From Bauldia sp. (GTDB lineage Bacteria > Pseudomonadota > Alphaproteobacteria > Rhizobiales > Kaistiaceae): 64,000 nucleotides of DNA. Positions 28,277-52,925 of this stretch are shown here, one piece after another. Numbering within the stretch: position 1 is the first letter of the stretch; the number at the start of each line of letters is the position of its first letter. The position numbers and the translations under genes were made by a program. The notes below the pieces were generated by a model, which ran no database searches, was not told the DNA's origin, and saw only the letters and a program-made list of their open reading frames with translations. Location of the stretch: contig JAHCJZ010000001.1 in NCBI GenBank assembly GCA_026126025.1, forward strand, positions 186,001 through 250,000, read 5' to 3'.

Positions 28277-28369
28277 AGAGCGAGCACCGCCACCTGTCTG
28301 CGCCTTGGCGGGTCGCCGTCCCCACATCGCCTCTTGAGAATGCCTCCAGGGAGGACGACATAGGGGCCG

Positions 28370-30295
28370 ATGACCGTCGCCGAATCCTCCCGGCCGCGCC
28401 GGGTTTCGGCCGACCGGGGCTCCACCGCCACCGCCCTTCGCAATCTCTGGCCCTATATGTGGCCGGCGGACCGGCCCGACCTGAAGCTGCGCGTCGCGCT
28501 CGCCTTCGCGGCGCTGGTCCTCGCCAAGGTCGCGACCGTCCTCGTTCCCTATCTCTACAAATGGGCGACCGACGCGATCGTCCCGGTCGACACCGGCCCC
28601 GGCGCCGCCGTCGCGCTCGCCGTGGCGACGCCGGTGATGCTCGTCGTCGCCTATGGCGTCGGCCAGGTGCTGCGGCGCGGTTTCGACCAGCTGCGCGACG
28701 CGCTGTTCGCCAAGGTCGGCCAGCACGCGGTGCGGCAGCTCGCCTTCCGCATGTTCGTGCATCTCCACGCGCTGTCGTTGCGCTACCACCTCCAGCGCCG
28801 CTCCGGCGGCCTGACGCGGCTGATCTCGCGCGGCATCAACGGCATCGAGACGATGGTGCGCCACACCATCCTGTCGAGCCTGCCGACGCTGCTGGAATTC
28901 GCGCTCGCCGCCGCCGTCATCGCCTACCAGTTCGGCTGGCAGTACGTCCTCGTCGTCGCCATCACGGTGGTGCTCTACGTCACCTATTCGGTGCTCGCCT
29001 CGAACCGGCGGATCGCGATCCGCCGCGAGATGAACGAATCCGACACCGACGCCAACCAGAAGGCGATGGATTCGCTCCTCAACTACGAGACGGTGAAGTA
29101 TTTCGGCAACGAGGCGATGGAGGCGGAGCGCTACGACCGCTCGATGGAGCGCTACCAGGCCGCCGCGGTGAAGACCTGGACCTCGCTCGCCTGGCTCAAT
29201 CTCGGCCAGAACGCGATCTTCACCGCCGGCATGACGATCTCCATGGCGATGTCGGCGGCCGCCGTCATCAACGGCACCCAGACCGTCGGCGACTTCGTGC
29301 TGGTCAACGCGCTCCTGATGCAGCTCGCCGTGCCGCTTAATTTCATCGGCTTCATCTATCGCGAGATCCGCCAGGGCCTCGCCGACATCGAGGCGATGTT
29401 CGACCTCCTCGACGTGCCGGCCGAGATCGTCGACAAGCCGGGTGCGCCGCCGCTCGACGTCGTCGGCGGCACGATCCGCTTCGAGGACGTGCATTTCGCC
29501 TACGACCCGTCGCGGCCGATCCTGAAGGGCATCAGCTTCGAGGTGCCCGCCGGCCGCACCGTCGCCATCGTCGGCCCGTCGGGCGCCGGCAAGTCCACCA
29601 TCGCGCGCCTGATGTTCCGCTTCTACGACGTGACGGGCGGCCGCATCGCCATCGACGGCCAGGACATCCGCGACGTGACGCAGCATTCGCTCCGCGCCGC
29701 GATCGGCATGGTCCCGCAGGACACCGTGCTCTTCAACGACACCATCGAGTACAACATCCGCTACGGCCGCACCGATGCGTCGGACCGCGAGGTGCGGCAG
29801 GCCGCCGAGCTGGCGCAGATCGCGGATTTCGTGGAATCGCTCCCCGACGGCTACACCACCGAAGTCGGAGAGCGCGGCCTCAAGCTGTCGGGCGGCGAGA
29901 AGCAGCGCGTCGCCATCGCCCGCACCATCCTCAAGGGGCCGCCGATCCTCGTCCTCGACGAGGCGACCTCCGCCCTCGACAGCCACACCGAGCGCGAGAT
30001 CCAGGGCGCGCTGGAGCGGGTCGCCGCGAACCGCAGCACCATCATGATCGCCCACCGGCTCTCCACCGTGGTCCACGCCGACCGGATCATCGTGCTGCGC
30101 GACGGGGTCATCGTCGAGGAGGGGAACCACGGCGAGCTCCTCGCCCGCGGCGGGCTCTACGCTTCGATGTGGAACCGCCAGCTCGAAGCGGCGGAAGCCG
30201 CGGAGCGGCTCCGCGCCGCGCGCGAGGCGGACGCCGAAGGCTTCCTCGACCCGCCCCCGCCGCCCGACGCGATCCCCGTGCCGGCCGCGGAGTAG
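28370..30295 (+). CDS. Atm1-type ABC exporter
   Basis: A 641-residue half transporter. A six-helix membrane domain (residues about 40-320) is followed by an ATPase domain with Walker [10 protein letters not shown], signature LSGGEKQR and Walker [13 protein letters not shown]. The membrane domain ([35 protein letters not shown]) is diagnostic of the Atm1/HMT1 group. That group exports glutathione-linked compounds and links to heavy-metal tolerance and cytosolic Fe-S assembly. It works as a homodimer. Confidence 0.93.
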
Positions 30296-37262: not shown

Positions 37263-37336
37263 TGGGGGATAGTTTAACGGTAGAACAGCGGACTCTGACT
37301 CCGCTAGTCTAGGTTCGAATCCTAGTCCCCCAGCCA
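37263..37336 (+). tRNA. tRNA-Gln, anticodon CTG, element insertion site
   Basis: The acceptor stem is TGGGGGA/TCCCCCA, with G73 and an encoded CCA. The anticodon stem GCGGA/TCCGC holds loop CTCTGAC, giving anticodon CTG (glutamine, CAG codons). The T arm is CTAGG-TTCGAAT-CCTAG. The last 47 bases, from the anticodon stem on, are repeated exactly at 52879-52925. The gene is therefore the attachment site of the element and remains intact at its left end. Confidence 0.97.
37290..37336 (+). other. attL core (tRNA-Gln 3' part)
   Basis: 47 bases identical to 52879-52925. The identity begins inside the anticodon stem and ends at the encoded CCA. Flanking bases on both sides differ (C before against G; A after against T), which fixes the limits of the repeat. 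Confidence 0.95.
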
Positions 37337-37383
37337 AATAAAATCAGTTACTTAGGTAGGACATGGCCGCTCAGTTGGGCGGC

Positions 37384-37409
37384 CATGTCGCGTTTATGTC
37401 GCATGGACG
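37384..37409. promoter_or_regulatory. Left arm-type repeat, candidate integrase site
   Basis: CATGTCGC-GTTT-ATGTCGCATGGACG holds two direct copies of ATGTCGC 11 bases apart. It matches 52704-52729 at 24 of 26 positions. Here it also encodes the last residues of the integrase. Repeats of this kind near both ends fit arm-type binding sites of a tyrosine recombinase. Confidence 0.55.
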
Positions 37410-38644
37410 GCTGCGAAGAGCGTTCGTTCGGCCTTGGCAAGAGCCTTCGCATCGTTCGTGCTCGGGAAGAGGTGGCCGTACACGTCCATCGTCATAGTGA
37501 TGGACGCATGACCCATGCGCGTCTGCACGACCTTTGGCGGCAGCTCAAGACCGCCATCGGCCCGCCGGTTGATGCACCACGAGGCGTAAAAGTGCCGAAG
37601 GGCATGGAGTCCGGTATATTTCGGCGCGAGGATCGGGTTGCCGGCTTCGTCCCGCTCGTCCGTCTCGACCGTTACGCCTGCGGCGAGCATGGCCGGAAGC
37701 AGCCCGCGGCTGACGATGTTGCTGTGGTACTCGATCGCTCCGGCCCCCGTCGGAAACACGAGATCGAGTTCCCCTTTCGGGCACTGCAGTTTCCATTCTC
37801 GCAAGATGTTCGAGACGAGCGGCGGAAGCGGGATGGTCCGCTGGCCGTCCTCGCTCTTCGGCATGCCGATAGGGTTGTGACCCGCCTCGCGGTGCCGCGC
37901 CGAATGATAGCGGTCCGCCCGCTGACGGATGTGGATTTTGCCTTCCTTGAGATCGACGTCCTGCCATCGCAGTCCTCGAATCTCCGACGCCCGCATGCCC
38001 GTAAAGATCGCGGTGACGATGAGGGGGCGGTAGCGGCCTTTCGCGTGTCTGAGGATCGCCCCGATTTCGGCCGGGGAGGGAATATCGACGCCGACCTCGA
38101 GGCGCTTTTTCTGGCGGCGCGTGCCTTGTGACGCCCGGCCGCGGCCGCGCCGCTTGGCGAGCTCGGCGACGGGATTGCGCGCGGCGACCCCACGCTCCTG
38201 GGCGTCGGCGAAGAGGCTGCCGAGGCTGACCGTGACCCGCTTCACCATGTCCGCCGAGGCGCCCTTTTCGCGGAGGCGATCCTGAAAGGCCCTCACGCCC
38301 GGGACGTTCAGTTTGGAGAGCTTTTCGCGGCCGATCAGGGGCGCGATGTGGAGATCCAGGTGCTGCCGACGTTGATCCAGGGTGCTGAGCTCAAGGGGAG
38401 GGTCGCTGTTCTCTCCGGTTTTGATCCACTCCCTTCCGGCCTCCTCCACCGTGACCGTGGCGCGATCGGCTACGTGAGTGCCGTCCCGAACCTCCACGCT
38501 CGTGCTCGCCGCGAACGCGTCAGCGTCCTTCTTGCGGGCAAAGGTGCGCAACCGCCGGACGCCGCCGCCGTCGCGGTAGTCGACGACCCAGGCTGTTTTG
38601 GTTTCACCCGATCCGGCCTTCCATTCGCGCTTGCGGACTGACAT
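37394..38644 (-). CDS. int: Tyrosine integrase of the element
   Basis: A 416-residue phage-type integrase. The N-terminal part (residues 1-60) resembles an arm-binding domain, then a core-binding SAM-like domain follows. The catalytic domain has Arg in TGMRASEIRGLRW, the HxxR box in LHALRHFYASW, and GHASITMTMDVYGH with the nucleophile Tyr. It recombines the tRNA-Gln att sites. I chose MSVRKREWK at 38644; 15 residues further upstream are unlike integrases. The gene ends 58 bases from the attL core. Sequence before the start has ATGTCGC/ATGTTGC repeats like those at the ends. Confidence 0.95.
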   Translation of the reverse strand: MSVRKREWKAGSGETKTAWVVDYRDGGGVRRLRTFARKKDADAFAASTSVEVRDGTHVADRATVTVEEAGREWIKTGENSDPPLELSTLDQRRQHLDLHIAPLIGREKLSKLNVPGVRAFQDRLREKGASADMVKRVTVSLGSLFADAQERGVAARNPVAELAKRRGRGRASQGTRRQKKRLEVGVDIPSPAEIGAILRHAKGRYRPLIVTAIFTGMRASEIRGLRWQDVDLKEGKIHIRQRADRYHSARHREAGHNPIGMPKSEDGQRTIPLPPLVSNILREWKLQCPKGELDLVFPTGAGAIEYHSNIVSRGLLPAMLAAGVTVETDERDEAGNPILAPKYTGLHALRHFYASWCINRRADGGLELPPKVVQTRMGHASITMTMDVYGHLFPSTNDAKALAKAERTLFAAVHAT

Positions 38645-39120
38645 CTGCGACACCCCCGGTTGGAACCACCTTGTTCCACCTCGTACCATGTCGCACCATG
38701 TTGCACAAATCCGCTAGTCGCAACATCGGCCGCGGCGGACACCGAGACGGCGCCGGACTCGACGGCGGCGACCAGCTCTCGCGCGCCCTCTTCCTGAACC
38801 GTCTTTGCGGTGCGAACGCTGCGATCGGACACATTGAGAAGCTCTGCCGCGCGCTCCTGCGTAGCCGCTTCAAGCGGCAAATTTGCCGCTTGATCGGAGC
38901 GCCGATCACCGCCGTGCGGAAGCTTGGCTAGCCTCGCCGCCACCATGGCGCGCTGGCTCTCGCTGAGGTGCCGGCGGGCGAGGTTCTTGGCGACAACGAA
39001 ACCAAGCGGGTCGTCCCCGACGTACTGCGCGACGGGGTACGCAACACCAGCTTCCCGTGCCGCCATGTAGCGGTTGCGGCCGTCGCAGAAACGCAAGGGT
39101 TCGGTGAACGAAAAGCGACG
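38470..39120 (-). pseudogene. Remnant of a phage ParB-like nuclease-domain gene
   Basis: The open frame encodes CDGRNRYMAAREAGV, KNLARRHLSESQRAMVAARL, GGDRRSDQAANLPL and ERAAELLNVSDRSV, typical of phage and plasmid ParB-like regulatory proteins. The usual 40 or so N-terminal residues before DGRNR are missing, and no other frame supplies them. After about residue 125 the sequence no longer fits the family and runs out of frame across the integrase start. No ATG with a ribosome site is present. I take it as decayed. It is not the chromosomal partition ParB. Confidence 0.7.
38871..38892. repeat. 22-bp perfect palindrome in the ParB-like remnant
   Basis: CAAGCGGCAAA and TTTGCCGCTTG meet without a loop. 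The core GCAAATTTGC recurs as a palindrome at 46571-46580 in a gene 7.7 kb away. Confidence 0.85.
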
Positions 39121-39130
39121 TGCGGCACGT

Positions 39131-39148
39131 TGCGTGACGAGTCACGCA
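39131..39148. promoter_or_regulatory. Inverted repeat between divergent element transcripts
   Basis: TGCGTGAC-GA-GTCACGCA is a perfect 8-bp inverted repeat between the leftward ParB-like/int side and the rightward HTH/rep side. Its position suits a switch operator. The 39150-39300 stretch otherwise holds CTCCGCCGGCTTCTGACGGAG, a possible hairpin, and AT-rich sequence but no gene I can support. Confidence 0.5.
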
Positions 39149-39301
39149 GCGTGCGCGATCAGTAACTTATTGCGGTTACAGCGGTTTCGGCCCGCGGGCG
39201 CCCGGCAAAGGTTGAGTTATCCACCAGAAAAGCCAGAAACGCCAGCTAACTAATTCAAGCAGATAGGAAAGCTCCGCCGGCTTCTGACGGAGCAGAGTGC
39301 G

Positions 39302-39598
39302 TTGCGGGCTGACTCGGATCAGCCCAACACTGTCCCACGGTGCCCCCCCCCCCAACAACGGATGGTCACAGTGGAAACCAAATCCGATCAGGACGAGCCG
39401 GTTCTGAGAAACGCAAAACAGATTGCGGAGTTCGTCTTCGGAGAAGACAGTAAACAGAACCGACGGCGGATTTACTATGCAGCCGACAAAGGTTATCTGG
39501 CCGTTCGGCGAGTCGGAAAGCTGATCCAGACCACCCGCGCAGCAGCGCGGGCATACATGGAGCCGCCCACGGATGGCTCCTTCGCAGCGGGGGAATAG
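39302..39598 (+). CDS. Small HTH protein, excisionase/AlpA-like
   Basis: A 98-residue protein if it starts at TTG 39302 (GGAG nine bases ahead), or 78 residues from the ATG at 39362, which has no ribosome site. NAKQIAEFVFGEDSKQNRRRIYYAADKGYLAVRRVGKLIQTTRAA reads as a winged helix-turn-helix of the kind found in excisionases and AlpA-type island regulators. If the TTG is used, an 11-C run lies inside the coding part. It opens the rightward transcript of the element and could control excision or replication. Confidence 0.65.
   Translation: MRADSDQPNTVPRCPPPQQRMVTVETKSDQDEPVLRNAKQIAEFVFGEDSKQNRRRIYYAADKGYLAVRRVGKLIQTTRAAARAYMEPPTDGSFAAGE
39343..39353 (+). repeat. Run of 11 cytosines at the HTH gene start
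   Basis: An uninterrupted C11 tract lies nine bases before the ATG at 39362 and 41 bases inside the frame that opens at TTG 39302. Such runs vary in length by slippage, and they are also a common place for sequencing errors. Confidence 0.9.
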
Positions 39599-39774
39599 CG
39601 AGGCCTGGGCAGGAGGAGGCGCCTGGCCCCAGGCTTCGCTGATCAACAACGGCTCGGGCGAGCTGTTCGACTATCCCACGAGTGGGCCCGGCGAGCTCGC
39701 CGGGCAACGCACCTCGGTCGGCGAGCTCAGCGATCCGCTCGACGACATTCTGCCACTGGCAGGGGGCTGAGCGC

Positions 39775-40527
39775 ATGGCGGCCGCCAAGCCGATCTTCGC
39801 CCCGGTGCCGCTACGCTGTCTTGTCGACGGCCGACTCGATGACCGCCACAAACTTGTCCTGATGGTCGTCGCGGCTCATGACCGGCTGGGGCGCAACGGT
39901 CTTGGTTGCACGGCCTCGGTCTCGCGGATCGCTGAGCTCGCGGGAGTTGACTACACAGTGTGCTCGGCTGCCCTGAACCACCTGATGCGGTGCGGCTACC
40001 TCGAGGGCGCTCGCCAGCAGGATGATGGCCGCGCCCGTATTTGGCGGGTCGTTTACACCGACGACGATGCCAAGGTGCTGCCGAATCCCCGTCGCGGTCG
40101 TTTGCCTCCACGCAAACCATCGCCCGCAGATAGTTTGCCTGGAGACCATTCGGACCGCCGAGATAGTTTGCCTGAGGCGGCCACAAAACCCAGCGCGCTC
40201 AACGGTTCTCCCGATCCAATATATTCCCTGAAGGGGAAGAGAGACCCTGAAGGGGAAGAGAACCCTCCAAGAGCGTCGCGTGGCCGCGACGGTGAGCGTT
40301 CGAGCCATTTGCCGACGCGGTTGCATCAGATCGAGAAGAGGCTCTTGGAGACCGGCTACAAGCCGCCGAGGAATCATCCGACGCTCGATCAGCTCAACGA
40401 GTGGAGCGAGGAGCTGTCCCGGATCTCTGACGACCACGGCGCCGCGGGCGGTGATCCGATCGGCGGCCATGCTCATCGCCTCTTCGAACGTGTCGAACAG
40501 CTGATTGCCGAGAAAGAGGCGGAATAG
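39775..40527 (+). CDS. Replication-initiator-like protein with winged helix
   Basis: A 250-residue protein. Residues about 15-100 (DDRHKLVLMVVAAHDRLG ... CTASVSRIAELAGVDYTVCSAALNHLMRCGYL) form a winged helix like those of phage O-type and plasmid replication proteins. The middle is Pro/Ser/Asp-rich and unstructured, and the C-terminal 70 residues are helical. The gene middle carries three 33-bp-spaced repeats, a 17-bp repeat read in two frames, and an AT-rich patch, as in lambda O where the origin sits in the gene. AGGGGG precedes its ATG. The 176 bases before it hold only a weak short frame. Confidence 0.6.
   Translation: MAAAKPIFAPVPLRCLVDGRLDDRHKLVLMVVAAHDRLGRNGLGCTASVSRIAELAGVDYTVCSAALNHLMRCGYLEGARQQDDGRARIWRVVYTDDDAKVLPNPRRGRLPPRKPSPADSLPGDHSDRRDSLPEAATKPSALNGSPDPIYSLKGKRDPEGEENPPRASRGRDGERSSHLPTRLHQIEKRLLETGYKPPRNHPTLDQLNEWSEELSRISDDHGAAGGDPIGGHAHRLFERVEQLIAEKEAE
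40100..40261 (+). other. Candidate replication origin inside the rep-like gene
   Basis: GTTTGCCT starts at 40100, 40133 and 40166, exactly 33 bases apart. The last two copies extend to AGATAGTTTGCCTG (40128-40141, 40161-40174). An inverted GCAAAC lies at 40112-40117. Then comes AT-rich CAATATATTCC (40218-40227), and CCCTGAAGGGGAAGAGA twice (40226-40242 and 40245-40261), 19 bases apart and so in different reading frames. Iterons followed by an AT-rich patch are the classic layout of an origin. Confidence 0.6.
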
Positions 40528-40834
40528 GTGTTCTGAGCGCGAGCGAGACGGCGGCGAGGATATTCGCGCCGAACGACTAGCGGAGGTTTACACCGATAGT
40601 CCGACATGGCACAAAGCGAGGGAATGAATGCTCTTTCCTCGGCCGATCGGTTGCTATGTCGCGTCGCTTGTCGCACCGACCGTGACCCCCACCCCCTTCG
40701 TTGCGTAACGGCGTTGCGGGCGGGCCGGCCCGAAAATTCGCGTCAGAAGTGGCGTTCGTGTCCGGTCAGAGCGGTTCCACACCGCTCAAATCTTCGAGTT
40801 CCCCCGCGTTTTTCACCCCGTTGCGAAAGGTCCG
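40528..40834. other. 307-bp stretch without a clear gene
   Basis: Short open frames on both strands here (for example 40606-40857 plus, 40473-40676 minus) have no ribosome site and no recognisable sequence. A promoter for the next operon may lie here, but I cannot pick one. No RNA gene is visible. Confidence 0.5.
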
Positions 40835-41422
40835 GTGCCGGTGAGTGTTCCACGTGAAACCGCCCCGCTGGTCCGACGGCAGGCGCCGATCCTGAAGCCC
40901 GGCCGGCCGAGGAAGCGCGTCGCGCCGAAGTCGCGCGGGCCGAGCGCGAAGGTGCGGGCGGCGCTGGAGAAGATGGTCCACGAGGGTCTGCCGCGGCCTG
41001 AGGCCGCGGCATTGGCGGGCCTGACTGACAACGGGCTCTATCGCGCGCTCCGAAACCCTGCGGTTTTGCGCTGGTACAACGACGAACTCGCCGCTGTCCG
41101 CAACGCGGAGAAGCCGCGGAACCTGCGGGTGGCGACGGATATCCGCGACGACGCGACGCTGGAGGGCGCCGCCGGCGCGACGGCGAAGCTCAAGGCGATC
41201 GCGGCGATCGAAGGCCGCGACGACCGGCCCGGCGTCACGATCCACAACAACGTCGGCGTGGCGGTCGAGACGCAAACCCCTGGCTACCGGGTTGTCCTGA
41301 ACCCCCACTACGTCGACGCCGAGATGATCCGCTCCATGAGCCCCGAACAACGGCGCGCGCTCAATCTCGACCCGGGCGCCATCGACGAGGCAGCCGAAGA
41401 CGAGGAGCACGCGACGCCATGA
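40835..41422 (+). CDS. TerS-like / phage DNA-binding protein
   Basis: A 195-residue protein. Basic residues (GRPRKRVAPKSRG) are followed by an HTH (AALEKMVHEGLPRPEAAALAG / LTDNGLYRALRNPAVLRWYN) and a helical RNLRVATDIRDDATLEGAAG segment. This organisation resembles small terminase subunits of alphaproteobacterial phages, which recognise DNA for packaging. No large terminase follows. GAAAGG is five bases before the GTG at 40835; GTG 40841 is an alternative. Codons 4-9 contain a near-parS sequence. Its stop overlaps the next start by ATGA. Confidence 0.55.
   Translation: MPVSVPRETAPLVRRQAPILKPGRPRKRVAPKSRGPSAKVRAALEKMVHEGLPRPEAAALAGLTDNGLYRALRNPAVLRWYNDELAAVRNAEKPRNLRVATDIRDDATLEGAAGATAKLKAIAAIEGRDDRPGVTIHNNVGVAVETQTPGYRVVLNPHYVDAEMIRSMSPEQRRALNLDPGAIDEAAEDEEHATP
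40846..40861. promoter_or_regulatory. parS-like site
   Basis: TGTTCCACGTGAAACC matches the bacterial chromosomal parS consensus TGTTTCACGTGAAACA at 14 of 16 positions, including the central CACGTGAAAC. It lies inside the start of the TerS-like gene. Confidence 0.55.
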
Positions 41423-41643
41423 GCAACGAAGGACAGCGCATCCTGGCCGAGTGCTACGACATGCTCACCGCCATGTCGGACAAGATGGCCATCGGACACC
41501 GGGTCGACCGCGGCGAGGTCCAGGTCGACCAGCTGCCGACAATCGACCGCTACGTCTCGCGGGCCGCGACGCTCGACTACGTCGTGCACGGCAAGGTCTC
41601 GCCGGCGGTGGCCAGCATCACCGGCCTCAAGGTGCGGCGATGA
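41419..41643 (+). CDS. Small element protein, unknown
   Basis: A 74-residue soluble helical protein (RILAECYDMLTAMSDKMAIG ... TIDRYVSRAATLDYVV). Start and stop each overlap the neighbours by ATGA, so it is translated in series with the TerS-like gene and the next one. I do not recognise it. Confidence 0.65.
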   Translation: MSNEGQRILAECYDMLTAMSDKMAIGHRVDRGEVQVDQLPTIDRYVSRAATLDYVVHGKVSPAVASITGLKVRR

Positions 41644-41876
41644 CGATCGCGAACGGCGGAGGCTCCGGGACAGGGCGAAACGCCGTCGCTAGCGACGAGC
41701 GTGCAACTCCCCGTGGTACGGAGCCTCCGGGGCCAATATGCGCGCCCGTCATGCCGCTCCGCAAGCCGGCGCCGGAGCGTCCGCCGCTGCACGAGCTCAT
41801 AGCCGCGATCCAGCGCGGATTCCGCCGGCCTGAGCGGCCGTCGGCGGTGGTCCTGCAGTTCCGTCGCGAGGGCTGA
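41640..41876 (+). CDS. Small Pro/Arg-rich element protein
   Basis: A 78-residue protein, mostly disordered (Gly, Pro, Arg and Ser rich) with a short helix HELIAAIQRGFRRP at the end. Its ATG overlaps the previous stop, and the next gene starts two bases after its stop. Coding status rests on this tight packing. Function unknown. Confidence 0.5.
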   Translation: MTIANGGGSGTGRNAVASDERATPRGTEPPGPICAPVMPLRKPAPERPPLHELIAAIQRGFRRPERPSAVVLQFRREG

Positions 41877-41877
41877 G

Positions 41878-42315
41878 ATGGGGATCTCGCCAGGAGGGAT
41901 CGCCGCGATCGGCATCGGCATGCAAGCCATGTCGATCCTTGGCCGTTCGTTTGGCGAGCGAGCGGCCGCGCTGGACCAGAAGCGCAAGGCGGAGTTTGCC
42001 GCCCGCGTGGGGATGGTCGCGGCCGACCAGATCGACACAGCCTACCGGCAGGAACTCGCCGCCACGGTGTCGAACATCCGGGCGATCCAGGCATCGGCCG
42101 GGGTCAATGTCGGCAGCCCGTCGGCGCAGGCCTTCCTCCGCGGCGAGGAGGCGGCGAGCGACGGCGACCGGGCGACGGCCGTGGCGTCGGCGCGCCTGCA
42201 GGCCGGGCAGCACGGTCTCGACGCCATCGCCTACCGGCGCGCCGCCCGGTGGTCGCTGATCGGCGGTGCGATCGGTGCGGGCTCCACCTTGATTGGAATC
42301 GCGGGGCTATTCTGA
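41878..42315 (+). CDS. Internal virion protein-like (gp14-type)
   Basis: A 145-residue protein with hydrophobic ends (GGIAAIGIGMQAMSIL and SLIGGAIGAGSTLIGIAGLF) around a helical, Ala/Gln/Arg-rich middle. The phrase IRAIQASAGVNVGSPSAQAF is characteristic of small internal core proteins of T7-like phages, which leave the head first and form a pore in the outer membrane. It begins the ejection-protein series; its stop overlaps the next start (TGATG). The assignment is by pattern, without alignment. Confidence 0.6.
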   Translation: MGISPGGIAAIGIGMQAMSILGRSFGERAAALDQKRKAEFAARVGMVAADQIDTAYRQELAATVSNIRAIQASAGVNVGSPSAQAFLRGEEAASDGDRATAVASARLQAGQHGLDAIAYRRAARWSLIGGAIGAGSTLIGIAGLF

Positions 42316-45300
42316 TGGTGAAGTTGCCGACCATTCTTCGCCGCGGCGAGACATTGCGGGCGCCGCAGTCGGGCGTCTCGCCGGGCACGATCGCCGCGCC
42401 CTACGCGTCGATCTCCAACGCGCTCGGTGCGCTCGGGGAGAAGCTTGAGCAGCGCGGTATCGCGGAGCTGCAGACCCAAGGCCAGAACGCGGTGACGCGG
42501 GATGCCGAGGGCAACCTACAGGTCCGGCTGATGCCGAATACGTCGGCCGCGGCGAACGCCTACAACCGGGCGGCGTCGCAGGCCTTCCTCGCGCGGCTCG
42601 ACGGCGACATGCGCACCCGGTCGCTGGAGTTCGCCCAGCAGGCCAATGGCGATGTCGCGGTGTATGACGCGGCGTGGGTGGCCTATGCTGAGCGCACCCT
42701 GCAGCTCGTGCCGGACGAAATCCGTGGCGGCGTGGAGCAGATGCTCGACGCGATCGGCGGGGCGCAGCATCGCGGCATCTCCGCGGCACGGTTCGACAGC
42801 GACACGCGCGAGTTCCGCGACACGCTCGAAACCCGGCGCGAACGTCTCCTCGTCGAGATGCAATCGCTCGCCGCCACCGGCGGTGCGGCGACCGCCGAGA
42901 TGGCGCGCCTCCGGGCCGACTTCGGCGCCCTCGGGCAGGAGCTCGTCGGCAACCCCGCATTCGCCGTCTCGGCAGAGGCGGTGAGCTGGCTCGACGCACA
43001 GGCCGACGCGCAGGTCGCGGTCGCTGGCGTCACCTATGAGGTCTTTCAGCGCTTCCCGATGAACCCCGCCGCCGGCATCGCTTGGGCGGAGGAACAGCTG
43101 GCCGGGATCGAGGGGCTGTCGCTCGCCGAGCAGAGCCGGGTCATGGGGCAGGTCCGCACCGGCTACACCGCCGAGGGCGCCGCGTGGCAGGTCGCGGTGC
43201 GCGATCTCACCGGCCGGGTCGATGACGTTATCGAGCGGATCGAGAAAGACCTGCCATACAACGCCGCGGCGGTGTCGCGGCTCATGGACGAGGCTCACGG
43301 CCTCAATGCCGGCGTCCAGGCCGCGCGCCTGCAATTCGCGATCGACCTGGCCGGCTTCGACGCCGAGATTCGCGCTGCGCCGCTGCCGGCGCTGGTTGAC
43401 ACTTGGAACGACGCCGAAGCGATAGCGACCGGCGTTCCCACGCCGGAGGTCGTGTCGTTCCTGACCGAGCGCCGGATCGGTGGCGGCGTCAACATCGAGG
43501 GGCTGAACCCCGACGCGGCCGGCGTCTTCGCGCAGGCCATCGCCGCAGCCGAACAGGCGACCGGGCAGCGAGCGGTTATCACCAGCGCGCATCGCACCGC
43601 GGAGGTGCAGGCCCAGCTCTACGCCAACTTCACCCAAGCGCCCGTCACCTACAACGGCCGCACCTACACCCCGAATGTCGGGCCGGGCGTGCAAGGCACA
43701 GCCGCGCCTCCCGGCCAGAGCCGGCACCAGGGCGGGAACGCTGTCGACCTCGCCGCGGGGCCGGTGCTGGACTGGCTTCATGCCCACGCCGCCGAGCTCG
43801 GCATCGAATTCCTGCCCGACAGCGCCGGCGATCCGGGCCACATGCAGCTCGCCGGCGGCCGCGGCGGCGCGAGCGAGGTGCGTACGGAGATCCTGGAGTC
43901 GATCCAGTCGGGGGTCGCGGCCTCGCTCCCCGTGGTGCTCGACGATGTCGAAGCGATCCTCAACACGACCGGCGGCGGCGTCTCGGTTTCGGATGCGACG
44001 TACATCGCCCAGGCCGCGGCGATCGCGGGCGATCCCACCCTTGTGCAACGCACCGTCGGGGTTCTCTTCCAGGCCGCCGGCGTGGCGAGCGCGATGGCGC
44101 CGACATCGGGCGGCCTCACCGTCGACGACGTGATCAGGATCACCGCGCCGCTTCTCGCCGAGGGCGCGGTGATGGGGCCGGCCGCGGCGCAGGCCGCGCT
44201 CGACCGGGGGTTCCAGCAACGGCAGGGAGCGCTCGCCGACCTTCACGAGGATGATCCTCTACTCGAAGGGCAGGCGCGCCACCTCTACACCGTCGAGCCG
44301 ATCGACTGGACGACGCCGGAGACCGCGCGCCAGGGGCTGCTGCAGCGCCAGGCGCAGGTCGCCGCGCTGGAGACGACACAGGGCTATGGCCCGCAGGGCG
44401 CGCTCCTCGCCAGCGAGGCCGCGGCGCTCGCTTCGCGTTTCGGCCGCGCCGCGCCCGACGAGCAGATCGCGATCCTCGGCCAGCTCGCCGGCGCCGGGCT
44501 GCGGCAGGAAACGCTGGTGGCGACGCTGGCGCAGATCGCCGACGAGGCGCCGATGCTGGCCGTCGCGGGCGCGGTGTACGCCGACAACCCGGAGGCCGCC
44601 GAGGGCATCCTGCGCGGCCAGGCGCTCGAAGCGGCGGACAGTAGCCGGGCGCCGAAGCCGTCGGACTGGCAGGGCGCGATCGACACGGCGTTGCCGGCCT
44701 CCGTCTTCGCCTGGGGGCTGGAGCGGCAGCGGCAGGCGATCGTCGCGGCAGTTCGTTACAGGTTCATCGACCTTGCCGCGCGCGCCGGCCTGGGCGCAGG
44801 GGTCGTCACCACCGACCTTGTGCAGCGCGCGGTGGCCGACATCACCGGCGGCACCGTCAGCTTTCATGGGCACGACGTGATCGCGCCGGAATACGGGGAG
44901 AACCAGGCCGCGTTCGACCGGCGGATCGCGGCATTGCCGGCGGAGGCGATGGCCGGCGCGGTCACCGCAAGCGGCGCGCCGCTGACGATCGACGACCTCC
45001 GGTCCTCCACGATCTTCGGCGAGGACGACGTGCGGCTGCGCAGCTACGACGAGGGCCGGTATCTGATCGAGTTCGGACCGACGTCCGATCCGCTCTACGC
45101 GCTGGCGGCCGACGGCTCAGGAGCCTTCATCCTCGACCTTTCCTCGCGGGCGCGCGACGAGCTGCTGCGGCGGTACTACACCACGCCACCGATCCCGAAC
45201 CCGGCCGGCCCGGACGCCGCAGCCTTCGCAGCCGAGGGCTTCGTGCTCCGGGAGACGATCCGCGAAAACCTCCCGCCGCTCGACCAGCTGACGCGGGGCG

Positions 45301-45470
45301 ATTTCGACATCATCGCCGCTGCGCTCAGCGAGGGCCTGCCGCAGCGCGTTCCGGACGACATGCTGCTGCGCTTCCTCGCCGACCACTACGGCGCCGAGCC
45401 GGCCGACATCGCCCGGCAGATCGGCGCCGCCGGCGGCGTCCTCGGCCGCTTCATCGAGGGGGCGCACTGA
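42315..45470 (+). CDS. Large ejection protein with M15 peptidase domain
   Basis: A 1051-residue protein. Residues about 400-510 form a D-Ala-D-Ala carboxypeptidase (peptidase M15, VanY-like) domain with zinc ligands His471 in QSRHQGG, Asp478 in GNAVDLA and His509 in GDPGHMQL. The flanks are long helical, Ala/Glu/Gln-rich stretches. Large virion proteins with an embedded peptidoglycan hydrolase open the cell wall for phage DNA entry (as T7 gp16 and relatives). The gene is a single unbroken frame and overlaps the next start by one base. I see no signal peptide, which fits a virion protein. Confidence 0.7.
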   Translation: MVKLPTILRRGETLRAPQSGVSPGTIAAPYASISNALGALGEKLEQRGIAELQTQGQNAVTRDAEGNLQVRLMPNTSAAANAYNRAASQAFLARLDGDMRTRSLEFAQQANGDVAVYDAAWVAYAERTLQLVPDEIRGGVEQMLDAIGGAQHRGISAARFDSDTREFRDTLETRRERLLVEMQSLAATGGAATAEMARLRADFGALGQELVGNPAFAVSAEAVSWLDAQADAQVAVAGVTYEVFQRFPMNPAAGIAWAEEQLAGIEGLSLAEQSRVMGQVRTGYTAEGAAWQVAVRDLTGRVDDVIERIEKDLPYNAAAVSRLMDEAHGLNAGVQAARLQFAIDLAGFDAEIRAAPLPALVDTWNDAEAIATGVPTPEVVSFLTERRIGGGVNIEGLNPDAAGVFAQAIAAAEQATGQRAVITSAHRTAEVQAQLYANFTQAPVTYNGRTYTPNVGPGVQGTAAPPGQSRHQGGNAVDLAAGPVLDWLHAHAAELGIEFLPDSAGDPGHMQLAGGRGGASEVRTEILESIQSGVAASLPVVLDDVEAILNTTGGGVSVSDATYIAQAAAIAGDPTLVQRTVGVLFQAAGVASAMAPTSGGLTVDDVIRITAPLLAEGAVMGPAAAQAALDRGFQQRQGALADLHEDDPLLEGQARHLYTVEPIDWTTPETARQGLLQRQAQVAALETTQGYGPQGALLASEAAALASRFGRAAPDEQIAILGQLAGAGLRQETLVATLAQIADEAPMLAVAGAVYADNPEAAEGILRGQALEAADSSRAPKPSDWQGAIDTALPASVFAWGLERQRQAIVAAVRYRFIDLAARAGLGAGVVTTDLVQRAVADITGGTVSFHGHDVIAPEYGENQAAFDRRIAALPAEAMAGAVTASGAPLTIDDLRSSTIFGEDDVRLRSYDEGRYLIEFGPTSDPLYALAADGSGAFILDLSSRARDELLRRYYTTPPIPNPAGPDAAAFAAEGFVLRETIRENLPPLDQLTRGDFDIIAAALSEGLPQRVPDDMLLRFLADHYGAEPADIARQIGAAGGVLGRFIEGAH

Positions 45471-47323
45471 TGGCCGCCCTCGCTCTCCCGACCGCGGACC
45501 AGGCCTACGCCGCACGCTTCGCCGCGGCCCGTCCGGTCGACGCGCCCGATCCGGGCTTGGGCGGGGCGATCGGGGCTGCTTTCCGCGCGGTGGAAGCGCG
45601 GATCAGCGGGTTCCGCGCCGAGGAGCTGCGGCGCGATGTTGTGCAGGAATACCTCGACCGTCTCTACGCGGCGACCGGCGAGCGGCTGGAGAACCCGGCC
45701 GTCGGCGCCCCCATGTCGATCCGCACCGATTGGCGCTCGATCTTCACCCCGGCGCGCGACCTCATAGCGGAGCTGTGGGCCACCACGCGCGAGCGGTACG
45801 ACGCCTGGGCGGTCCCGGCGGGCTATGACCCGTTCCCGACCGACGAGGCGATCGAGGAAGAGGTTCGCGCCCGCCGCCAGGCCCAGCTCGAGGAAGCGCA
45901 GGCGACCCTCGGCGCGGCGCGCACCACCGACGCCGCGATCGGGCGCATCCTCGGCGGCCTCGCCGCTCCGGTGATGCTCGACCCGATCGTCGGCGGCAGT
46001 CTGGGCCTTGGCGCGCCCTTCGCCGCGGGCATCCTCCGGACGGCCCTGATCGAGGCCGGAATCGGCTTCGGCGCCGAAATCGTGTCGGGCGTGGCGCATC
46101 TCGGCGGCGTTCGCGCGATCGATCCCGGCTACGGGCTCGACGACATCATGGGGCAGGCGGCCTTCGCTGCGGGCGGTGGCGCCGTCTTCGGCGGCGGCAT
46201 TCGCGCCCTCGCGGCGCTGTGGAGCGCGGTGCGCGGCCGCGCCTGGCCGTCCTCGGTGCGCGACGCCGGTATCGTCGTCGAGCACCAGGCGGTTCACGCG
46301 CCGCCAGGCGCGACGGTCGCCGAGCAATCGGCCTACGCCGCACGCGCCGCCATCATCGAAGCCGACATGCTCGCCGGCATCCGGCCGCGCCAGCTCGACT
46401 TGCCGTTTCCGCAGTCGGCAGGACGGGCCGCCGAACCGCCGGCGCCTTCCCCGGCCGCGGCCATGCCCGCCGATCGTCGCCCGGCGGTGACGGGCGAAGG
46501 CGCCGCTCCGGGCCGACCATCTGAAACTCCCTCAATTGAGGGAGTTTCCCATCCGCAACGTCTTCAATCCGCAAATTTGCGGACTGATCAAATGCTGACC
46601 CGCGCCTATGGCGAGCCGCTGGCGCTCGTCAGGGCGCTCCGCGAGCCCGGGAGCCCGGCGCGCGCCATCGCCGCCGGCATGGCGGACGCCGCCGAACCGT
46701 GGGCGCGCATGCGCGAGGCGGCAGCGGCGGGAGACATCCCGGCGGGCATGGACATCACCGGCAGCCTGATCGAGGCGCTGCAGCTCGTCACGCGGGCCGG
46801 CGGCCGACCGGAACGGCTCGCCGCCGCGATCGACCAGGGCACGATGTTCGGCGGTCCTTCTCCGGCGGCGCGGCAGATCCTGCGCGGTCTCATCGGCGAC
46901 GGCTCGCCGGCGCAGCTCTCGCCGCGCCGGGTGTCCGCCTTCCTCACCGACTATGCCGACGAGGCGCTGCGGAACACGGCGGCGCCGCGGCTGATCGGCG
47001 ACCCCCTGCGGGCCGACGAGGTGATGGCGACGGCGCTCGCCAAGGCCGGCCGGGCGGACCTCTACGCCGATGCGGTGGAGCTCACGCGGCCCGCGGCGAT
47101 CGAGAAGGCGATCGACAATCCCGAGGTCGCCCGCGCGACGCTGCACGAGGTCGACCAGCTGCTGACCGCGGACCCCGACATGACGATCGCGATCACGGTG
47201 CGCGACGCCGCGGGCGATACGATGGTGGTGACCCGGCCGCTGCGCGAAGTGCTGGACGAGCTCGAGGCCGACGCACTCGCCGCCCGCGAGATCGAGGCCT
47301 GCGTGGTCGGAGACGAAGCATGA
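45470..47323 (+). CDS. Putative ejection/virion protein with hydrophobic glycine-rich region
   Basis: A 617-residue protein. Residues about 160-270 are Gly/Ala-rich and hydrophobic (GRILGGLAAPVMLDPIVGGS, QAAFAAGGGAVFGGGIRAL), suggesting membrane insertion, with helical regions on both sides. A Pro-rich linker near residues 320-380 is encoded by DNA with two perfect palindromes. It overlaps both neighbours by a few bases. I infer a role with the adjacent ejection proteins; I do not recognise a named family. Confidence 0.55.
   Translation: MAALALPTADQAYAARFAAARPVDAPDPGLGGAIGAAFRAVEARISGFRAEELRRDVVQEYLDRLYAATGERLENPAVGAPMSIRTDWRSIFTPARDLIAELWATTRERYDAWAVPAGYDPFPTDEAIEEEVRARRQAQLEEAQATLGAARTTDAAIGRILGGLAAPVMLDPIVGGSLGLGAPFAAGILRTALIEAGIGFGAEIVSGVAHLGGVRAIDPGYGLDDIMGQAAFAAGGGAVFGGGIRALAALWSAVRGRAWPSSVRDAGIVVEHQAVHAPPGATVAEQSAYAARAAIIEADMLAGIRPRQLDLPFPQSAGRAAEPPAPSPAAAMPADRRPAVTGEGAAPGRPSETPSIEGVSHPQRLQSANLRTDQMLTRAYGEPLALVRALREPGSPARAIAAGMADAAEPWARMREAAAAGDIPAGMDITGSLIEALQLVTRAGGRPERLAAAIDQGTMFGGPSPAARQILRGLIGDGSPAQLSPRRVSAFLTDYADEALRNTAAPRLIGDPLRADEVMATALAKAGRADLYADAVELTRPAAIEKAIDNPEVARATLHEVDQLLTADPDMTIAITVRDAAGDTMVVTRPLREVLDELEADALAAREIEACVVGDEA
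46523..46548. repeat. 26-bp perfect palindrome inside a coding region
   Basis: GAAACTCCCTCAA meets TTGAGGGAGTTTC with no spacer. It lies in the linker codons of the 617-residue protein gene and is much more AT-rich than its surroundings. Confidence 0.95.
46568..46583. repeat. 16-bp perfect palindrome, shared core with remnant
   Basis: TCCGCAAATTTGCGGA lies 20 bases after the 26-bp palindrome. The core GCAAATTTGC is the same as in the 22-bp palindrome at 38871-38892, and both encode Ala-Asn-Leu. Confidence 0.95.
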
Positions 47324-49806
47324 GCGTGATCGCGAACTGCCTCGCCCGCCTCGTCCGGCTCGGTCGCATCGATCGGGCGACGGCCGACGCCGCGCAGGCG
47401 ATCCATGACGGCCTTGCCGGCCGCCTCGCCGCCGAGATGCCGTCCGTCCACGCCGAGGCCTACGCGGCTTTGAATACGGCGAAGCTGATGGTCGCCAGGG
47501 CGGCGGAGCGAAAGCTGAGCGTCGCCCGCCAGGCGATCCGCGCCGGGGAAGCGGCAACGCGGGTGACGACGCACGGCCACAGCAGCGCGGCCGGCCTCAT
47601 GGCCGAGATGACGACGGACATCCGCGGCATGGCGAGGGGCGGCAACGTCGAATCCCTGAGCGAAGTCCTCACCGCGGAGATGATGCAGAAGTTCAAGGCC
47701 GGCGCCGAGCGCATGGGAAGCCGGTTCGCCGGCCTGGTGCAGGACCGCGCCTTCGCCGAGCGCTTCATCGACGAGGTGTTCGAGGTCGACAGCGGCGACG
47801 ACGCGATCCGCGCCGCGGCACGGGGGTTCAAGGACGCCAACGAGTGGGGCGTCGCCCGCGCCAAGGCCGGCGGCAAGGTGTTCACCGCCCTCGATGACTG
47901 GCGGCTGCCACAGCCATGGTCGGCCGGGCAGATGCGCAGCCGGGGCGCGGATCGGTGGGTCTCCGACGCGATGCGGCAGCTCGACACCGGCGGCATCGCG
48001 GCGATCCTCGATCGGAACGGCGTCCCGCTCACCCGCGCCGACGCACCGGCCCGGCTGCGCGAGATGCACGAACACGTCACCCTCCGCCGCGGCGGTGCTG
48101 CCGGCGCCTTCTCCCCGGAGATGCGCGCGATCCGCTTCGCTCCCGGCAAGGCCGGCGCCGCGGCCTGGCGCGAGCTGCAGGGGCGCTACGGCGCCGGCCG
48201 GGACATCTACGGCATCGTCACCGGCCACATCGCCGCCATGGCGCGCGAGATCGCGTTCATCGACCAGTGGGGCCCCGACTACAACGCGACGTTCCGCACG
48301 CTGGTCGACACCGTGCGCCGCGACGAGGTGGCGGGGAAGGCCCGCCGCTCGGCGGCGCGCGTGTTCGGCTTCGAGAGCGCCGCCGCCGCCGAGCGGACGT
48401 TCAAGGTGCTGACCGGCGAAGCCAACGTGGTCCAGTCGGAAGCCTGGGCCGGCATCCTCGGCGGCATCCGCGCCGCGCAGGCCGCGGCGGACCTCGGCGG
48501 CGCGGTCTGGCCGTCGGTGTTCGGCGACAGCGTCACGGCCAAGCTCGCCGCCAACTGGAACGGCGTCGCCGGCGCCCGCGTCATCGCCCGCGCCGTCGCG
48601 ATCATGATCAAGGACAACCCGACGATGCGGGCCGACGCCGCGCGGCTCGGGCTCACCGCCTACGCGGTGACCGACGCGCTGGCCGGCAGCGCCCGCTATC
48701 TCGACGACACGTTTGGCCCGGCGCTCTCCGCCGCCCTTCGCGGCGAGAGCGGCGTCGGCCTCGCCCGCCGGTTCAACGAGGTTGCCGCCGGCGCCGCGCA
48801 GTTCGTGATCCGCGTGCAGGGCCTGCAGGCCTGGACCGAGGCGATGAAGCGGGCCTTCTCGATGGAGATGCTGGCGCTCGTCGCGAAGCAGCGCGGCCGC
48901 GCCATGAGCCGGGTCGATGTCGAGTTCCGCCGCTTCCTCGAAAGCCACGGCTTCACCGCGGCGGAGTGGGACGCGCTGCGCGCCACGCCGGCGCTCGACA
49001 TCGACGGCGCGCAGTTTTTCGACATCGAAGGCGTCGCCGACCGCCGCCTCGGCGAACGCCTTCTCGGCGCCATCGTCGACGAGCGCCGCTACGCCATCCT
49101 CGAGCCCTCGGCGCGGGTCCGCCAGTGGACGACGCAGGCGCTGCCGCGCGGGTCGCTGATGCGCGAGGTGCTGTCCTCGGTGCTGGCGTACAAGTCGTTC
49201 CCGATTTCGATGATGTTGATGCACGGCTCGCGCCTCTTCACGCAGGAAGGCGTCGTGAACCGGCTCACCTATCTCGCCAAGCTGGCGGCCCTCGGCACGC
49301 TCGCCGGCGCCGCCGTCGTCCAGGCGCGGTCCATCTTCCAGCTCCGCGATCCGCGGCCGATGAACAATGCCGAGTTCTGGGGCGCCGCGCTGATCCAGGG
49401 CGGCGGGCTCGGGATCTTCGGCGACCTCCTCTATGAGGGCTACACCCGCGGCGGCGGCGGCCTCGTCGCCACCCTGGCCGGGCCGATCGGATCGCGGATC
49501 GAGCAGGTCGGCCAGGTCGTGTTCCCGACGCTGCGGTCGGCCTTCGAGGGCGAGGAAGTCAGCCCCGGCGCCGCCCTCTACCGGCTCTTCAAGTCGAACA
49601 CGCCGGGATCGAATCTCTGGTTCGTGCGCGGGATCATCGACCGGTATGTCTTCGACCAGGTGCAGCGCCTCGTCGACGGCGATTACGAAGCGTCGCGCCG
49701 CCGGCTCGTCCAGCGGATGCAGCGCGAATACGGCAACGGCTTCTTCTGGGCGCCGGGCACGCTCGCCCCGCAGCGGGCGCCCGATTTCGGGAACGCGCTG
49801 CGATGA
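47320..49806 (+). CDS. Large ejection/internal virion-like protein
   Basis: An 828-residue, mostly helical, Ala/Arg-rich protein. Near the C-terminus are a hydrophobic segment (LAALGTLAGAAVVQARSIFQL, residues about 655-675) and Gly-rich parts (IQGGGLGIFGDLLYEGYTRG). The conserved-looking core AKSFP-like stretch (VLAYKSFPISMMLMHGSRL) and the ending YGNGFFWAPG resemble large internal proteins of podovirus-like prophages. No catalytic domain is visible. The start overlaps the previous stop and the end overlaps the next start, each by four bases. Confidence 0.6.
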   Translation: MSVIANCLARLVRLGRIDRATADAAQAIHDGLAGRLAAEMPSVHAEAYAALNTAKLMVARAAERKLSVARQAIRAGEAATRVTTHGHSSAAGLMAEMTTDIRGMARGGNVESLSEVLTAEMMQKFKAGAERMGSRFAGLVQDRAFAERFIDEVFEVDSGDDAIRAAARGFKDANEWGVARAKAGGKVFTALDDWRLPQPWSAGQMRSRGADRWVSDAMRQLDTGGIAAILDRNGVPLTRADAPARLREMHEHVTLRRGGAAGAFSPEMRAIRFAPGKAGAAAWRELQGRYGAGRDIYGIVTGHIAAMAREIAFIDQWGPDYNATFRTLVDTVRRDEVAGKARRSAARVFGFESAAAAERTFKVLTGEANVVQSEAWAGILGGIRAAQAAADLGGAVWPSVFGDSVTAKLAANWNGVAGARVIARAVAIMIKDNPTMRADAARLGLTAYAVTDALAGSARYLDDTFGPALSAALRGESGVGLARRFNEVAAGAAQFVIRVQGLQAWTEAMKRAFSMEMLALVAKQRGRAMSRVDVEFRRFLESHGFTAAEWDALRATPALDIDGAQFFDIEGVADRRLGERLLGAIVDERRYAILEPSARVRQWTTQALPRGSLMREVLSSVLAYKSFPISMMLMHGSRLFTQEGVVNRLTYLAKLAALGTLAGAAVVQARSIFQLRDPRPMNNAEFWGAALIQGGGLGIFGDLLYEGYTRGGGGLVATLAGPIGSRIEQVGQVVFPTLRSAFEGEEVSPGAALYRLFKSNTPGSNLWFVRGIIDRYVFDQVQRLVDGDYEASRRRLVQRMQREYGNGFFWAPGTLAPQRAPDFGNALR

Positions 49807-50702
49807 CGGCCCCGCGCATCCTCGGCCTCGCCAACAATTACGAGGACTTCGCCCGAATCCTCGCGGCGCGCAGGCGGGCGCTCGGCAAGCCGCAGCTGGA
49901 GATAGACCACATCGCCGGGCTGCAGGACGGCTACACCGGCAAGCTGGAGATCGGCGGCCGCCGCGGCGGGCGCAATGCCGGGCGCGTGTCGCTGTTCCTG
50001 TGGCTGCAGGCGCTCGGCGTGACCATCGCAGTCGTTGAGCTCGCCTCCAATTCCAACCTCTCACCAGGAGACATCGCCGTGGGCAAGGAAGACCTTACCG
50101 CCGAACGCAAGCGTATCGAAGATCGGCTCGACGAGAAGCGCCTGGAGCGCGGCCGGCTCGTCGTCGCCGGCAAATCGACCAAGGCGGCAGATGCCGAAAT
50201 CACCCGCCTCGAAGGCCTCATCGAAGGCCTCGACGATGCCGAGCGCGCTGTCGCGGTCGACGAGGCCGAGCGCCTTGCCAGCCGGCGCGAGGACCACATC
50301 AGGGAGCTGCACGACGTCGCGATCGACACGGCCGAGGTGCTGGGCGCCTGCTATGAGGCCGTGGAGAAGGCCGCGCGGGAATGCGCGGTTACCGTCGCGG
50401 AGGCGCTGAAGCTCGTGCGGGACCGCAGCGAGGCCCTCGCCTCGCTGCACCGGCTCGTCGTCGACGGCCCGGGCGCCTATCCGAACATCCCCAACGTCGT
50501 GCAGCGCGCCGCCGACGAGTTCGGCGCGATCATTAAAGGCGCGCTCTACGCCGAGGTGCAGCCGCTGCAGCACCTCGGGTCGCTCGCGCTGATGCATGGC
50601 GGCGCCAGCTCGACGGCGGAGGAAAGCCGCAAGCAGCTCGCCGCCTGGCTGGAGACGATCCAGCGCGCGAACCACCAGCGCCTCATGGCCCTCACGGCCT
50701 GA
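49803..50702 (+). CDS. HTH plus coiled-coil protein, possibly two fused genes
   Basis: A 299-residue frame. Residues 1-85 (EDFARILAARRRALGKPQLEIDHIAGLQDGYTGKLEI ... WLQALGVTIAVVEL) match small XRE-like HTH proteins common in Hyphomicrobiales, which usually end about here. Residues 93-299 are a separate charged coiled coil (LTAERKRIEDRLDEKRLERG) followed by helices. At the junction AGGAGA stands ahead of an in-frame GTG at 50079, so the second half could also be made alone. Role unknown; the second half may be structural. Confidence 0.65.
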   Translation: MTAPRILGLANNYEDFARILAARRRALGKPQLEIDHIAGLQDGYTGKLEIGGRRGGRNAGRVSLFLWLQALGVTIAVVELASNSNLSPGDIAVGKEDLTAERKRIEDRLDEKRLERGRLVVAGKSTKAADAEITRLEGLIEGLDDAERAVAVDEAERLASRREDHIRELHDVAIDTAEVLGACYEAVEKAARECAVTVAEALKLVRDRSEALASLHRLVVDGPGAYPNIPNVVQRAADEFGAIIKGALYAEVQPLQHLGSLALMHGGASSTAEESRKQLAAWLETIQRANHQRLMALTA

Positions 50703-50744
50703 GGCGTTCGCCCCATCACCACCGCAAAACCCGGAGCACCGCCG

Positions 50745-50915
50745 ATGCCCATCGCGTTCACGATCCGAGACACCCTGACCGGAGAAATTCACAAGCGCCA
50801 CGGCGCCGACGCCGACGAGATGGTCAAGAACGGCATGGGCCGTTACGAGTTCGTCGACCGCGCCGGCGAGCATGCGGCCGCCACCAAGACCCGGCCGAAG
50901 CCGACGAACGGTTAA
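50745..50915 (+). CDS. Short element protein of 56 residues
   Basis: The frame starts MPIAFTIRDTLTGEIHKRHG and ends RPKPTNG. A CCGGAG site stands nine bases before the ATG. Composition and codon use match the neighbours, and the gene fits the gap after the HTH/coiled-coil gene. No family recognised. Confidence 0.55.
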   Translation: MPIAFTIRDTLTGEIHKRHGADADEMVKNGMGRYEFVDRAGEHAAATKTRPKPTNG

Positions 50916-50959
50916 GCCCGGCGTCGCCGGCGCCTATATTCGGCTTGGAGGTATCCCCC

Positions 50960-51157
50960 ATGATCCTTGTCGATTGGGAATATCGGCCCGCGGTGATGGT
51001 CGGCGTGCGCGCATTCGCAATCCTTGGGCCCGGCGAAGGTTGGACCGAAGTCGAGCCAGCCGAGGTTGCCGACAGCGGCAATGTCGTGTCGCCAGAGGAA
51101 TTCGCGTCCCGGTTCGGTGCGCTGCCGCCCCTGCCGAGCACCGTCGCGGAGGCTTAG
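50960..51157 (+). CDS. Short element protein of 65 residues
   Basis: The frame starts MILVDWEYRPAVMVGVRAFA and ends LPSTVAEA. GGAGG lies nine bases before the ATG at 50960. Soluble, beta-rich by appearance. Unknown function. Confidence 0.6.
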   Translation: MILVDWEYRPAVMVGVRAFAILGPGEGWTEVEPAEVADSGNVVSPEEFASRFGALPPLPSTVAEA

Positions 51158-52396: not shown

Positions 52397-52665
52397 TGTC
52401 GACCGTGACCATCATGGGACGCGACCCGATGACCGATCGTAGCGAACTGATCCGCGCCGGAGTGAAGAAGGGCGTCGACCTCATCATGCAGGGGCAATTC
52501 GAGGGAGAGAACCCTTGGGAGGTTGTTGCGGCCTTTGCCTATGACGCTGCGGCCGATGTCACCATGGGCGAGCTCCAAGAGGCGATCGACGACCTGGCAA
52601 AGACTACCGAGATGATCGGCACTTTGCTCAAGCCTGCCGACGAACCGCCGGCGTCCACCGGCTGA
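52396..52665 (+). CDS. Small helical element protein
   Basis: An 89-residue protein (RAGVKKGVDLIMQGQFEGEN, ELQEAIDDLAKTTEMIGTLL). It is coupled to the acidic protein by overlapping stop and start. An ATG at 52429 could give a shorter product starting MTDRSELIRAG. It is the last gene before the right end. Unknown function. Confidence 0.6.
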   Translation: MSTVTIMGRDPMTDRSELIRAGVKKGVDLIMQGQFEGENPWEVVAAFAYDAAADVTMGELQEAIDDLAKTTEMIGTLLKPADEPPASTG

Positions 52666-52678
52666 CCCGGCGCCCGCG

Positions 52679-52878: not shown

Positions 52879-52925
52879 GGACTCTGACTCCGCTAGTCTA
52901 GGTTCGAATCCTAGTCCCCCAGCCA
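52879..52925 (+). other. attR core
   Basis: An exact 47-base copy of the 3' part of tRNA-Gln (from the anticodon stem to CCA). The 5' half of a tRNA is absent upstream, so this is an attachment-site duplication and not a second tRNA gene. Confidence 0.95.

Follow-up and report, generated by a model that had tools for sequence, protein, structure and literature searches.

A Probable Replication Origin within Its Initiator Gene

Phage lambda and some plasmids already provide examples of origins that lie inside the gene of their own initiator, a kind to which the gene and in-gene origin described here would add. Lambda carries four initiator iterons in the middle of gene O, followed by an AT-rich region, and two Stx phages carry six, the extra iterons adding residues to O (PMC7466680). 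The N-terminal 120 residues of pSK41 Rep bind four Rep boxes in the center of rep, and residues 121–199, which are encoded by ori, serve as a linker (PMC5703833). In repABC plasmids, an alphaproteobacterial replicon type, oriV is located within repC (PMC3155836).

In the window, by which we mean the whole 64-kb stretch of DNA analysed here, positions 40100–40261 very likely are, or descend from, the replication origin of a 15.6-kb integrated element, inside its initiator gene at 39775–40527. We read this region as an in-gene origin that would work like lambda ori or the pSK41 oriV, the likeness being one of layout. As in lambda, the iterons lie inside the initiator gene; however, the repeat sequence, the 33-bp step and the weak AT patch are different, no P-like helicase loader was recognised among the 15 element ORFs scanned, and the protein is only distantly O-like. 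The likeness to pSK41 Rep is a common three-part plan with central sites, here within a linker at residues 101–179 that is predicted to be disordered, but the window element is phage-type rather than a plasmid and none of the four proteins compared below matches the RepA_N family at E ≤ 1. The repABC oriV is likewise within the initiator gene but differs in having a large A+T region, with no iterons reported in the abstract (PMC3155836).

An Iteron-Like Array in the Linker-Encoding DNA

The gene encodes three predicted parts, and every repeat falls in the DNA that encodes the second.

39775..40527, plus strand: replication initiator-like gene, 250 aa (phrog_270 replication initiation, 3.1e-5; HTH_36, 0.00036, and MarR_2, 2.2e-5, both under the Pfam cut-offs)
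39811..40071, plus strand: winged-helix domain, residues 13–99 (AF2 model, block pLDDT 64–93; PDB winged helices)
40075..40311, plus strand: linker, residues 101–179, predicted disordered, holding the repeats (pLDDT < 50 at 101–116 and 118–179)
40309..40521, plus strand: C-terminal helical part, residues 179–249 (AF2 helices 179–192, 204–221 and 228–249)
40100..40117, plus strand: iteron 1, full dyad GTTTGC-6-GCAAAC, core 117 bp before AATATATT
40133..40150, plus strand: iteron 2, left half-site, 14-mer at 40128–40141, 2/6 dyad pairs, core 84 bp before AATATATT
40166..40183, plus strand: iteron 3, left half-site, extra copy, 14-mer at 40161–40174, 0/6 pairs, core 51 bp before AATATATT
40218..40225, plus strand: AATATATT, proposed unwinding site, sole window copy, at the same distance as in L093, L100 and L139 to within 1 bp
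40226..40242, plus strand: 17-bp repeat copy A, CCCTGAAGGGGAAGAGA
40245..40261, plus strand: 17-bp repeat copy B, 19 bp on from copy A, in another frame

The repeats and the dyad were computed directly from the DNA. GTTTGCCT occurs at 40100, 40133 and 40166, at steps of exactly 33 bp and with two copies sharing 14 bases, just where the initial annotation had put it. These three are the only copies in the window, all within the initiator-like gene (shuffle mean 0.75; three reached in 4 of 100 shuffles). The 14 shared bases (AGATAGTTTGCCTG) have no other exact copy in the 3.2-Mb genome, in which two further sites match with one mismatch. The first copy forms a full dyad (6/6 pairs), a feature absent from the initial annotation, while copies 2 and 3 keep the left half only. 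The 17-mer has its two copies in different reading frames (gene offsets 451 and 470), again as had been noted, and no further copy was found in the genome with up to two mismatches allowed. A repeated-palindrome test of the gene was not significant, 35 of 100 shuffles reaching its score.

Two earlier claims held in part. Conservation across frames had been taken as a sign of selection on DNA; this applies to the 17-mer pair and to AATATATT, but the 33-bp iterons share a single frame, in which (R/S)(L/F)P recurs. An AT-rich patch had been placed downstream of the iterons, and the 30-mer from 40213 does have the lowest GC content of the gene (43%, in the lowest 0.8% of the element), but 40190–40265 as a whole is 57% GC, a far weaker patch than in relatives (35% in L093 and 32% in L100). 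AATATATT occurs once in the 64-kb window, against 0.03 expected.

Three Relatives with the Same Geometry

The decisive support for an iteron origin with the layout of lambda ori, as first proposed, comes from comparing sequences: three distant relatives have putative iterons at the same place and with the same geometry. Searching 397 genomes of the order with a profile gave L093 (E 7.6e-14), the L093 protein gave L100, a Rhizobiaceae metagenome-assembled genome (MAG), and L100 in turn gave L139, a viral contig. The comparison covers only four sequences, two of which come from MAGs and one from a viral contig. Winged-helix identity to the window protein is 38% for L093 (its protein taken from the identical record L099), 37% for L100 and 43% for L139; the C-terminal parts show no clear likeness. 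The setting of two relatives is that of a phage, with a terminase large subunit and an HNH protein in L100 and a head protease and major head protein in L139. L093 and L139 are only ~3.3 kb each.

L093 and L100 each contain two iterons 33 bp apart, and L139 contains five at steps of 36, 36, 33 and 33 bp. All nine start with GGTTSC (dyad GGTTNC) and have 4–6 of 6 dyad pairs. The last two in each relative are 33 bp apart, with cores 118 and 85 bp before AATATATT; their window counterparts are the first two cores, at 117 and 84 bp, and the additional third, at 51 bp, has no counterpart in L093, L100 or L139. The 17-mers are absent from all three, and an 18-base block of the relatives, AATATATTANGTANAAAC, has shrunk to AATATATT in the window. 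The linker proteins have diverged, yet the relatives keep repeats with dyads, the step of 33 bp and the spacing to AATATATT. This is the reverse of the refuting case named in the initial annotation, homologues that retain the protein and lose the DNA repeats. This conserved geometry is a direct computation, and its two distances (33 bp, and 85 bp to AATATATT) provide a handle on how one stretch of DNA can be both protein code and origin. At AATATATT the window frame reads P-I-Y and that of the relatives N-I-L, and what they have in common is therefore the DNA rather than the peptide, although the N-I-L shared among the relatives is a point against a DNA-only reading. The L100 iterons appear to be read in another frame; because the L100 gene carries a frameshift upstream of them, this is not evidence and was dropped.

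Relatives were rare in the searches. The window protein matched nothing in genome contigs, viral contigs or phages, only its own genome among 101 relatives, and one plasmid entry weakly (E 0.01). The L093 protein had no match in phages, plasmids or viral contigs, nor did the L100 protein in phages; the winged-helix profile A2 and the iteron-pair pattern each found nothing in viral contigs. The search that gave L093 matched 7 of the 397 genomes, its own included, and several of these matches are not initiators; the search that gave L100 returned two loci, one being the L093 contig itself. In the family of G121, one of five matched, namely G121. A route through virion proteins was discarded: the prophages share an 827-aa protein only, and none of their ORFs matches the initiator by phmmer. 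Among the papers listed in literature searches, none was recognised as describing this subfamily.

Predicted Initiator Protein

The AF2 model of the 250-aa protein has a mean pLDDT of 63.5, and both the predicted winged helix and the disordered linker are read directly from it. The best PDB match by Foldseek has E 0.014, short of the 0.001 threshold. In a structure comparison that effectively tests the winged helix only, the fold neighbours near the top include 4pt7 (Z 8.9, rmsd 3.0, 95 residues aligned), 4pql (Z 9.1, rmsd 5.6, 103 aligned) and 4pta (Z 8.1), which we take to be N-terminal domains of pSK41-type Rep initiators; the Z values of 4pt7 and 4pql tie with those of MarR/Fur-type winged helices. 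O-like PHROGs match the window protein weakly (phrog_391, E 0.072; phrog_678, E 0.034); among the four proteins, phrog_391 is found in all (best 3.3e-7) and phrog_678 in three. The Pfam O family is not among the matches of the four proteins at E ≤ 1.

The MarR_2 score of the winged helix and the closest PDB sequence matches by profile, which are MarR-type (E 0.0094 and weaker), would fit a MarR-type regulator that binds its own gene to control expression, with no origin involved. We consider this improbable, as the sites lie mid-gene, ~330 bp into the frame, and at a fixed distance from an AT block, and replication-initiation PHROGs (phrog_270, phrog_391 and phrog_8102) dominate in all four proteins.

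Under the preferred reading of an in-gene origin, the N-terminal winged helix would bind the GTTTGC/GCAAAC iterons, as a dimer at copy 1, where the dyad is full, and through half-site contacts at copies 2 and 3. A 33-bp step is about three helical turns, which would place the iterons on one face of the DNA and align the bound protein. The array could then distort the DNA at AATATATT, the putative melting point at a fixed distance, and the C-terminal helices may recruit the host helicase and primase. The linker would serve mainly as a spacer at the protein level, its codons dictated by the DNA sites. The 17-mers may provide additional binding sites, or they may reflect a recent duplication. We infer binding, melting and helicase recruitment, as well as any role of the 17-bp repeats. 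The region is a candidate minimal origin of less than 200 bp in a phage-type element.

Codon Usage and Shuffle Tests

The TTG and AGT codons of the repeats had been called unusual, and they are: across the element's genes, TTG accounts for 5% of Leu codons and AGT for 2% of Ser codons. A codon-usage test of the repeat region came out as predicted. Codon adaptation to the element's genes is −1.36 over 40075–40284 and −0.57 and −0.61 over the rest of the gene; seven other element genes were cut into 3083 overlapping 70-codon segments, and none of these scores as low as the linker (minimum −1.00). This directly computed collapse is confined to the linker region.

These data bear on the proposal that the linker carries a functional 11-residue (R/S)(L/F)P motif, with the DNA repeat as a by-product. 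In its favour are the single iteron frame in the window and in L093, the RFPD that the homologous frame of L100 also reads, and 26 of 2000 resamplings at element codon frequencies in which the longest repeat, at whatever spacing up to 60, has 14 bases, a result that arises because the protein itself repeats (D)SLP. However, when codons are shuffled within the gene, the 33-step repeat is reached in only 10 of 5000 cases for the window and 0 of 2000 for L139 (2 of 2000 for L093), and the 17-mer score of the window in 0 of 500. The rare codons recur identically, all nine iterons of the relatives have 4–6 of 6 dyad pairs, the distance to AATATATT is kept though the frame differs, and the linker is predicted to be disordered. 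A by-product of this type is therefore quite improbable, although, because the iterons lie in one frame, a protein-level constraint on (R/S)(L/F)P may still act.

The 15.6-kb Integrated Element

The initiator-like gene belongs to an element, 37290–52925, that we regard as a satellite-like or deleted prophage.

37263..37336, plus strand: tRNA-Gln(ctg), integration target (ARAGORN)
37290..37336, plus strand: attL-like 47-bp direct repeat, 3' part of tRNA-Gln, exact match to 52879–52925
52879..52925, plus strand: attR-like 47-bp direct repeat, bounding an element of ~15.6 kb
37394..38689, minus strand: integrase, tyrosine recombinase family (Phage_integrase 9e-15; phrog_1 4.3e-63)
38470..39096, minus strand: ParB-like ORF, matched part being the first ~124 residues (phrog_21315 3.1e-12; phrog_4715 ParB-like 3.7e-5)
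39362..39598, plus strand: small protein, possibly of excisionase type (weak; phrog_18541 unknown 7e-7; phrog_7506 recombination directionality factor 0.041)

Several large genes match internal virion or head families (phrog_418 3.8e-6, phrog_992 6.7e-12 and phrog_684 4.8e-131). One 1073-aa ORF (42249–45470) fuses a VanY peptidase domain (1e-7) to a phrog_992 head-protein region and probably encodes a virion-borne wall-cutting enzyme. A second, divergent phrog_684 virion protein is encoded in the same genome at 27241–29757 of the 41.8-kb contig C9 (locus L084), which might be another prophage.

At its 3' end the ParB-like ORF shares ~220 bp (38470–38689) with the start of the integrase ORF, and its matched part stops just before the overlap, as if the gene were truncated. 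Located ~320 bp past the initiator stop, TGTTCCACGTGAAACC (40846–40861) resembles parS, with one mismatch to what we take to be the chromosomal parS consensus. The genome has two perfect sites of this type, both on another contig, and seven with one mismatch, 40846–40861 included; window shuffles give 0.18 expected matches with up to three mismatches. No parS-like site was found in L093, L100 or L139. The adjacency of this ORF and the nearby parS-like site raise the idea that the repeats are a centromere bound by the ParB-like protein, but we hold this to be extremely improbable: L093, L100 and L139 keep the iterons with no ParB-like relative (best E 0.45), L093 and L139 within their ~3.3 kb.

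Two features put the present activity of the origin in doubt: in the window, copies 2 and 3 have only half-sites, and there is little of an AT patch. There is an appreciable but clearly minor chance that the origin, with the ancestry we prefer and thus overlapping that reading, is now inactive in the element. The half-sites and weak AT patch are consistent with such decay, as are a ParB-like ORF that runs into the integrase frame and the failure to find terminase, portal or major capsid matches among the 15 element ORFs scanned; the gene, however, is open over 250 codons, the att repeats are perfect over 47 bp and the two 14-mers are identical.

The inventory of integrase, ParB-like ORF, initiator, host-type parS-like site and internal-virion-type genes also allows a more speculative and, on balance, unlikely picture: a tRNA-integrated, satellite-like element of 15.6 kb, without a terminase, portal or capsid match, that would use the in-gene origin for its replication, may segregate with the help of host ParB and would depend on a helper for packaging. 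Such an origin would combine one full dyad with half-site iterons and two 17-bp palindromic repeats of its own.

In-Gene Repeats among Wider Profile Matches

Profile A2 has matches in 41 of the 397 genomes at E ≤ 0.001. A repeat counted as beyond chance if no more than 4 of 400 codon shuffles reached it, and 167 other prophage ORFs, a control stopped once more than 160 had been tested, were judged at the same 1% level. With loci divided at E ~1e-5, a split set after seeing the list, in-gene repeats pass in 10 of 17 stronger loci (L093, L100 and L103–L117), none of 13 weaker ones (L118–L130) and 14 of the 167 control ORFs (Fisher 0.001 for stronger versus weaker loci and 2e-6 for stronger loci versus controls). 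Two of the passing loci, L093 and L100, had already been looked at when the shuffle test was run; without both, 8 of 15 pass. The absence of such repeats from the weaker helix-turn-helix matches is a further argument against operator sites of a MarR-type regulator.

Many of the repeats are palindromes placed after the winged helix, with sequences and steps (20–51 bp) that vary by locus. In the repeated-palindrome test, 12 of the 17 stronger loci score at ≤ 2/100; among the 13 weaker loci, one is at 0/60 and the others are not below 4/60. An additional set of loci with a profile-matched ORF had 12 of 25 passing at ≤ 4/400, but it was left unused because three of the 12 are loci already counted among the 17 and some ORFs had been chosen at very weak E. 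The data suggest that initiators of this type in the order commonly carry in-gene iterons just behind the winged helix.

An unrelated O-like initiator (L069, 11021–12019; phrog_345, 7.1e-19), encoded in one of the prophages reached through the virion protein and one of the 14 positives among the control ORFs, contains a 12-bp tandem in-gene repeat.
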